Origin: Clostridia bacterium
Lineage (GTDB): Bacteria; Bacillota; Clostridia; Christensenellales; Aristaeellaceae
DNA length: 64,000 bases
Assembly: GCA_017395685.1 (NCBI GenBank)
Contig: JAFQOD010000004.1
Span: 1 to 64,000 of the forward strand
Direction: 5' to 3'
Under the pieces are notes generated by a model, which worked only from the letters and a program-made list of their open reading frames with translations, ran no database searches and was not told where the DNA came from. A program made the position numbers and the translations under genes. Below, piece by piece: positions 26,753 to 26,882 of the stretch (its first letter is position 1; each line of letters begins with the position of its first letter).

Positions 26753-26882
26753 GTAAACTTTTACAAAAAATAAGAAACAAAAAAGAAAAGGTAAAAAACA
26801 ACATAAATACTTGAAATAAGCGGATAACTGATATATAATAGTGCTGATACAAGAAACGAATAGTGAATTTGTAAAAGTTTAC
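26753..26882. promoter_or_regulatory. candidate invertible promoter segment bounded by 15-bp inverted repeats
   Basis: GTAAACTTTTACAAA (26753-26767) and its exact complement TTTGTAAAAGTTTAC (26868-26882) bound 100 bp. Inside lies TTGAAA (26811-26816), a 17-bp spacer and TATAAT (26834-26839), a near-consensus sigma-A promoter pointing rightward, away from the CxxC gene and against the recombinase gene. Inversion about the centre would place the -10 at about 26796-26801 facing the CxxC gene, with about 80 nt of leader. The right repeat overlaps the stop codon of the adjacent serine recombinase gene. It is read here as an OFF state. Confidence 0.7.

Follow-up and report, generated by a model that had tools for sequence, protein, structure and literature searches.

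The locus examined here raises the question of whether the short segment between the gene of a CxxC-repeat protein and a serine recombinase gene is a promoter switch that can be turned around, so that the protein is made in one orientation and not in the other. Judging from sequence comparison, it is very likely that the segment is an ON/OFF promoter switch for the CxxC-repeat protein, and the neighbouring recombinase is probably able to turn around a stretch of about 124 bp. The locus lies in a stretch of DNA of 64,000 nucleotides from a gut bacterium, hereafter the window, and the features that matter are the following:

23989-26709, minus strand: cargo ORF, a 906-aa CxxC-repeat protein; its ATG lies 34 nt from the cargo-side site and is preceded by AGGAG
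26744-26767, plus strand: cargo-side recombination site of 24 bp, TTGGGAATAGTAAACTTTTACAAA, an inverted repeat that includes the exact arm 26753-26767; centre AA by family alignment
26753-26767: exact 15-bp arm, GTAAACTTTTACAAA; the second arm, at 26868-26882, is its exact reverse complement, and 100 bp separates the two
26768-26867: segment proposed to invert, bounded by the exact arms; the proposal is based on relatives found in both orientations
26811-26839, plus strand: sigma-A-like promoter, TTGAAA-17-TATAAT, 11 of 12 consensus positions; a consensus match only
26868-26891, minus strand: recombinase-side recombination site of 24 bp, TTTGAAAAGGTAAACTTTTACAAA, an inverted repeat that includes the exact arm 26868-26882; centre AA
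26879-27508, minus strand: serine recombinase, 209 aa (Pfam Resolvase, 1.2e-31), with its stop codon inside the right arm
27592-27631: 18-bp perfect hairpin, a possible terminator that the terminator scan did not list, between the recombinase gene and ORF 27684-29003; the latter resembles RimO (by eye)

The first-pass annotation had described perfect 15-bp inverted repeats with 100 bp between them and the recombinase stop codon within one repeat; every coordinate was confirmed, the stop codon lying in the right arm. Comparison with relatives extends the site beyond the 15-bp arms to about 24 bp, with the two centres 124 bp apart. We considered the CT of GTAAA-CT-TTTAC as the site centre and dropped it, since it is three bases off the AA at which the family alignment places the centre. 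In the family weight matrix, the recombinase-side site scores 24.4 and the cargo-side site 16.5, the second-lowest among 63 second sites; the outer half of the latter is a poor match.

The core 12-mer GTAAACTTTTAC has two copies in the window when a single mismatch is permitted (0.02 expected) and two exact copies in the 2.83-Mb assembly (96% complete), both at this switch. Because the core occurs only twice in the assembly, the recombinase appears to be dedicated to the window switch; a master invertase serving many genomic sites was rejected on the same count of exact matches. When 26601-26960 was resampled 5000 times under a first-order Markov model, two resamples contained a perfect inverted repeat of at least 15 bp with a 40-300 bp spacer. 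Such repeats occur in 3 of the 354 real 360-bp tiles of the window, and two of these three are a separate repeat at 5234-5347. The latter is a perfect 16-bp inverted repeat (5234-5249 and 5332-5347, 82-bp spacer) that spans the start of ORF 5249-6385; this ORF resembles ApbE (by eye), and a flip would alter its N-terminus. A relaxase-like ORF (MobA/MobL, by eye) occupies 2475-4151, about 22 kb from the switch, and an Rfam search of the window returned no matches.

The promoter scores 10.3 bits, a value reached in 1 of 100 shuffles, in a segment that is 77% A+T. It had been described as pointing away from the 906-aa gene, and this is indeed its orientation: at present it is directed at the recombinase gene, and the terminator scan detected no terminator-like site between it and the 3' end of that gene. 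The cargo should be off in the assembled state because the promoter points at the recombinase gene. Upon inversion the predicted start (7 nt past the -10 element) would move to about 26789, which agrees with the 80-nt leader originally proposed.

The window thus combines the features by which an inverton is defined: a short segment, inverted repeats and a promoter inside. In the mechanism that we propose, the 209-aa recombinase would bind the two 24-bp sites and align them inverted; it would then cut around the two central bases and rejoin the ends, reversing the 124 bp between the centres. With the promoter toward the 3' end of the recombinase gene, as assembled, the CxxC-repeat protein would be off; in the inverted state a transcript would begin 80 nt before the cargo ATG and the protein would be on. 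We infer, for the window copy, its inversion, the action of its own recombinase and the dependence of the cargo on this promoter.

The cargo, a putative surface protein, has a signal-peptide-like start (by eye) and a cysteine content of 7.2%. It had been called an undescribed cysteine-repeat protein, which holds insofar as Pfam and NCBIfam gave no match at 1e-3; it is not unique, however, and its C-terminal third (about residues 600-906) is matched in 36 of the 60 genomes searched (its own included), many of them at several places. Nine such places lie in its own genome, itself included. A second Cys-repeat cargo, that of locus L074, shows only short repeat similarity to it (1e-4). A role in adhesion or shielding is our guess.

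Paired sites behind related recombinase genes

The recombinase has five matches in NCBIfam, with XisF and Mpi at the top, and all are well under their cut-offs (52.7 bits for the Mpi model NF009949, below a curated cut-off of 272). The closest solved chain is 2r0q, of the Sin/Tn552 type (1.1e-32, residues 3-161), and the residues R8, S10, R68 and R71 are invariant across a 33-row alignment. The structure predicted from these 33 rows consists of a resolvase catalytic domain, a long helix and three C-terminal helices (mean pLDDT 77.1; pTM 0.45, the arrangement of the parts being unsure), with block-mean pLDDT of 82-91 in residues 161-200; a single-sequence fold was poor (mean pLDDT 56.7). Foldseek with this model placed 2r0q and gamma-delta resolvase at the top, at whole-chain TM-scores of 0.38-0.45.

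Relatives were collected by a scan of genome contigs, which gave at least 576; the best 80 were kept and all of these were examined. Pairs were called with a 24-bp weight matrix trained on the same loci, in inverted orientation and with both sites above 12 bits, and by this call paired inverted sites of about 24 bp lie just 3' of the recombinase stop in 62 of the 80 relatives (the best of at least 576), or in 63 of 81 loci with the window counted. Sites placed at random in these loci formed a pair in 1 of 1710 cases with the threshold relaxed to 8. Inverted-repeat searches that used no matrix had already revealed a common motif behind the recombinase stop. The repeats beside the recombinase gene are thus conserved in relatives, in keeping with the initial reading of the locus.

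Eighteen of the best 80 of at least 576 relatives failed the pair call. On closer look four of them are paired, namely L012 (three sites), L023 (second site cut by the contig end), and L042 and L061 (by repeat search), while four show one site followed by the contig end (L040, L059, L062 and, as a partial site, L067). The other ten of these 80 have no recognisable pair though the contig continues (L011, L016, L020, L021, L024, L045, L056, L073, L081 and L083; L045 has one site-like stretch). A second search, in 60 related genomes, gave matches at 1e-3 in 26, the window's own included, and 29 further loci (L087-L115). The repeat search on 15 of these detected clear pairs in three (L088, L094, L112), and L095 has a weak pair; in the remaining loci given to the repeat search, including L087 with 73% identity, no pair was seen. 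L088 and L112 are in the same genome, which belongs to the window's own genus. The cargo of L088 resembles an acyltransferase (by eye), and cargo therefore varies even within this genus. Four of 15 relatives on viral contigs have a pair (L121, L122, L125, L126), three (L116, L124, L127) not being judgeable as their DNA stops at the gene; the window's exact right site was absent from the viral contigs scanned.

About a single centre, the recombinase-side sites show symmetry at a mean of 8.4 of 11 positions over the 63 loci, as against 1.6-3.8 when the centre is shifted by 1-3 positions; the cargo-side sites reach 7.3 of 11. The two central bases are alike in all 63 pairs (shuffled pairs: mean 59.1, maximum 61). 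The weight of this agreement lies in two joint departures, because 61 of the 63 pairs have GT: the window, with AA, and L049, with AC, differ from GT in both of their sites. For the inner halves, the two sites of a pair are identical in 24 of the 63 cases (1.4 in shuffles), and for the outer halves in three (0.2 in shuffles). In a crossover by a serine recombinase the overlap bases have to match, and the inner halves move with the segment. Matching centres together with identical inner halves are the pattern predicted for a serine-recombinase crossover site.

The centres of the 63 pairs are spaced by 113-116 bp in 27 cases, 124-127 bp in 10, 134-138 bp in 18 and 147-148 bp in three, with single cases at 104, 142, 187, 198 and 203 bp; the range 113-138 bp covers 55 pairs. 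These spacings cluster at steps of about 10.5 bp (Rayleigh p of about 8e-4 on 20 distinct values, an optimistic figure, as the best of eight periods; over all loci the statistic is inflated by shared descent).

Some loci depart from the common layout. In the first 230 bp past its recombinase stop, L012 has three sites, two GT-centred and the middle one AA-centred like the window's, perhaps as two nested switches. The paired sites of L126 (on a viral contig), L125 and L042 have GTATAC centres, whose AT is self-complementary and gives no direction. Behind the switch of L126 lies an ORF of about 1411 aa, the start of which resembles an NRPS condensation domain (by eye).

Inversion in relatives and other readings of the window

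In 19 locus pairs among the 63 loci the segments agree to 80% or more in either reading; eight of these pairs are reversed and 11 are not. The reversed pairs are non-independent and, by eye, require no fewer than four inversions: L029 against L030; L058 against L039, L044 and L051; L028 against L046; and L041 against L037 and L048. L029 and L030 have flanks that are 98% and 97% identical and a segment that is 65% alike as read and 100% alike when reversed. Near-identical loci thus exist in inverted states. In L051/L058 and L039/L058 the outer half-sites agree at 11 of 11 positions and the inner ones agree clearly better when swapped (9-10 of 11, versus 6-7); in L029/L030 the swap concerns one base per site, and in L028/L046, L037/L041 and L041/L048 the half-sites are too similar to tell.

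In 7 of the 80 loci (the best of at least 576) the contig breaks off no more than 370 bp past the recombinase stop, and in one of these 80 it does so no more than 370 bp ahead of the recombinase start, with one more at 392 bp. The contigs of L025 and L044, two of these seven, finish in an exact reverse-complement copy (73 and 60 bp, respectively) of sequence that lies upstream in the same contig, ends that could stem from a mix of both orientations at assembly, other assembly causes being possible. Two further loci, L031 and L034, are identical in recombinase, segment and compared flanks, and their records read Ruminococcus turbiniformis and Lactonifactor longoviformis, which indicates either a recent transfer of switch-bearing DNA or mislabelled contigs.

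Inversion in the family leaves room for a decayed, locked switch, in which the window copy no longer inverts and the cargo stays off from this promoter. This is compatible with the poor outer half of the cargo-side site and with the lack of a sister genome in the other state among 100 family genomes, where a DNA search did not find the orthologous segment and gave a top non-self match of 48 bases. However, the recombinase is full length and has kept the residues that are invariant in 33 aligned sequences, both window sites have changed together to AA, and L029 and L030 differ by inversion although they too have a poor outer half-site; we regard a locked copy as unlikely. It is less probable still that the two together form a res-like site, at whose subsites a Sin-like resolvase would resolve dimers or cointegrates with no inversion taking place. 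Sin and gamma-delta resolvase, rather than invertases, are the closest solved relatives, and spacing in steps of about 10.5 bp is expected of any complex that needs both sites on one face of the DNA, but the two sites are oriented toward each other, their asymmetric centres match, and the intervening DNA is reversed between near-identical relatives. Finally, there is practically no probability that the promoter is an ordinary one flanked by repeats that arose by chance or by operator sites, for although so A+T-rich a segment makes promoter-like matches cheap and the window holds another 16-bp repeat, the resamples yielded such repeats only twice in 5000 and pairs occur in 62 of the best 80 of at least 576 relatives versus a single random placement. 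The resolvase-site and chance readings were rejected on these grounds (paired conserved sites, reversed segments in relatives and the resample count), and the ON/OFF promoter switch is the reading retained here.

Promoters and cargos across the family

A sigma-A match at p<=0.05 (better strand, composition shuffles) is present in 32 of the 49 segments that do not precede TnpB-like genes, where about a tenth would be expected. At a difference of more than 3 bits, 26 promoters point away from the cargo as against 10 that point at it (binomial 0.011, a value that treats related loci as independent and counts the hairpin contigs L025 and L044). By sign, 14 of the 15 promoters before secreted-class genes point away, and those before methylases or helicases are divided into six away and five towards, the cargo classes being hand-made from protein starts and partial Pfam results.

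As the cargo we took the longest ORF in forward direction whose start lies no more than 700 bp from the second site. Such an ORF is present in 61 of the 63 loci and absent in the two hairpin contigs (L025, L044); a few of the 61 assignments are perhaps wrong (e.g., L031, L034, L072, L079). Pfam, run on 30 cargos, identified, among others, Eco57I methylases (L015, L071, L078), a C5 methylase (L047), a PLD and SNF2 helicase (L039), S-layer domains (L053, L069), BspA-type repeats (L036, L066), MBOAT (L077), DUF6020 (L027), a hexapeptide transferase (L019), OrfB/TnpB (L030, L041) and radical SAM (L080); eight of the 30 had no match at 1e-3. PADLOC on seven cargos was concordant for the four methylases (L015, L047, L071, L078) and the helicase (L039). 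Probable DNA-modification or defence cargos are, altogether, the methylases of L015, L047, L068, L071, L078, L082, L084 and L085 and the PLD-SNF2 helicases of L039, L051 and L058, among which L068, L082, L084 and L085 and the helicases L051 and L058 are named by likeness. On the recombinase tree, in which support is weak for 30 of the 77 inner branches, five hand-made cargo labels need 31 changes (minimum 4, shuffle mean 42.1). Read from this tree, the cargo of the switch is partly inherited and often exchanged.

TnpB-like cargos occupy 14 of the 63 loci (L009, L013, L014, L017, L018, L028, L029, L030, L032, L037, L041, L046, L048, L057). When the L030 cargo was aligned to the solved TnpB 8h1j, the RuvC positions, which we take to be D191, E278 and D361, were not conserved, and the stretches are similar in all 14 (by eye). 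None of these 14 segments has a sigma-A match at p<=0.05. In a FliA scan their best score was 9 or 10 of 12 in 13 of the 14, five reaching 10, and the mean was 9.29 versus 8.19 in shuffles; the window, with its sigma-A-like promoter, is not among the segments scoring at least 10. A flagellin-like ORF lies near L030 and L041, and a CsrA-like ORF near L030 (by eye).

A broader hypothesis, which we consider possible and rather doubtful, is that of a cargo-agnostic cassette of gut Clostridia, consisting of a recombinase gene of about 0.63 kb and an inverton with helically phased spacing and jointly drifting central bases, which would be placed before secreted proteins, DNA methylases, a helicase, glycan genes and dead TnpBs, and whose OFF promoter would damp its own recombinase and make the OFF state long-lived. 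Transcription from the promoter in its OFF orientation would run into the 3' end of the recombinase gene, and this could bring about such damping. In the sample (the best 80 of at least 576) the cargos, by hand-made classes, often belong to functions in contact with host or phage, namely secreted proteins, DNA modification and glycan synthesis. More generally, a site of defined length and centre adjacent to a serine recombinase gene makes switches of this kind findable from sequence, orientable and assignable to a cargo, and the wider family, for its site rule and the variety of its cargos, is of more interest than the window switch alone.

Comparison with known systems

Mpi of Bacteroides fragilis is a serine recombinase that flips short promoter segments before surface genes. 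It shares with the window a serine recombinase and a short invertible promoter segment; Mpi serves many genomic sites, whereas the window core was found only twice. The Hin and Gin invertases act by serine chemistry on near-palindromic sites with a 2-bp core and invert longer DNA with the help of a Fis-bound enhancer. The window resembles them in its near-palindromic sites with a 2-bp core and in its recombinase catalytic domain (Pfam Resolvase), and differs in that only 124 bp lie between its centres; given the longer DNA in Hin-type inversion, the short spacing in steps of about 10.5 bp is a mechanistic question. Sin is a resolvase working on res sites, and the Sin/Tn552-type 2r0q is both the closest solved relative and the first Foldseek match of the window recombinase. 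Systems with res sites need direct repeats and produce no inversion, whereas the window sites are inverted and relatives show inversion.

RecV of C. difficile acts from a distance. Inversions have been reported in 15 of 66 Firmicutes, 14 of these 15 in Clostridia (PMC5903667, available text), and the available text of PMC11892184 ties the largest group of Clostridia invertons (group 139) to tyrosine recombinases; the word 'serine' is absent from its main text. As described in these portions, the Clostridia invertons (PMC11892184) and the RecV system (PMC5903667) are like the window in having short segments with a recombinase nearby or elsewhere, and differ in that RecV-type and group 139 enzymes are tyrosine recombinases and the neighbour of the window segment is a serine recombinase.

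The closest parallel is in the available part of PMC13418256, which reports inversions of about 120 bp behind 'hin' at the csrA-tldR loci of Flavonifractor (Flavonifractor plautii/Oscillibacter). There, as at the window, a recombinase lies immediately upstream of the promoter-bearing inversion, so that the phase-variable-promoter layout first proposed for the window is of a kind already in print. In the window, too, paired sites follow directly upon the stop of a presumably related recombinase gene, at a spacing of 124 bp. Among our loci, L041 and L030 (recombinases 70% and 71% identical to the window's) are like those described in that part of PMC13418256, with a recombinase, sites 115 bp apart, a TnpB-like gene (Pfam) and a flagellin-like ORF. 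The 14 loci with TnpB-like cargo, which first looked new, are evidently of this reported kind. Judging from the described loci, we infer that the published hin belongs to the recombinase family of the window, and within the same limits PMC13418256 gives independent support for inversion. The csrA-tldR loci, as described there, carry a nuclease-dead TnpB behind a FliA promoter, whereas the window has a CxxC-repeat protein and a sigma-A-like promoter; the site centre is AA at the window and GT at the L041/L030-type TnpB loci that we liken to them. A search of the open-licence literature, to which this statement is limited, gave no account of one recombinase and site family before such mixed cargos. 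The switch in the window is of a known kind, and what is new about this variant is its cargo and its site centre; flipping is seen in its relatives.
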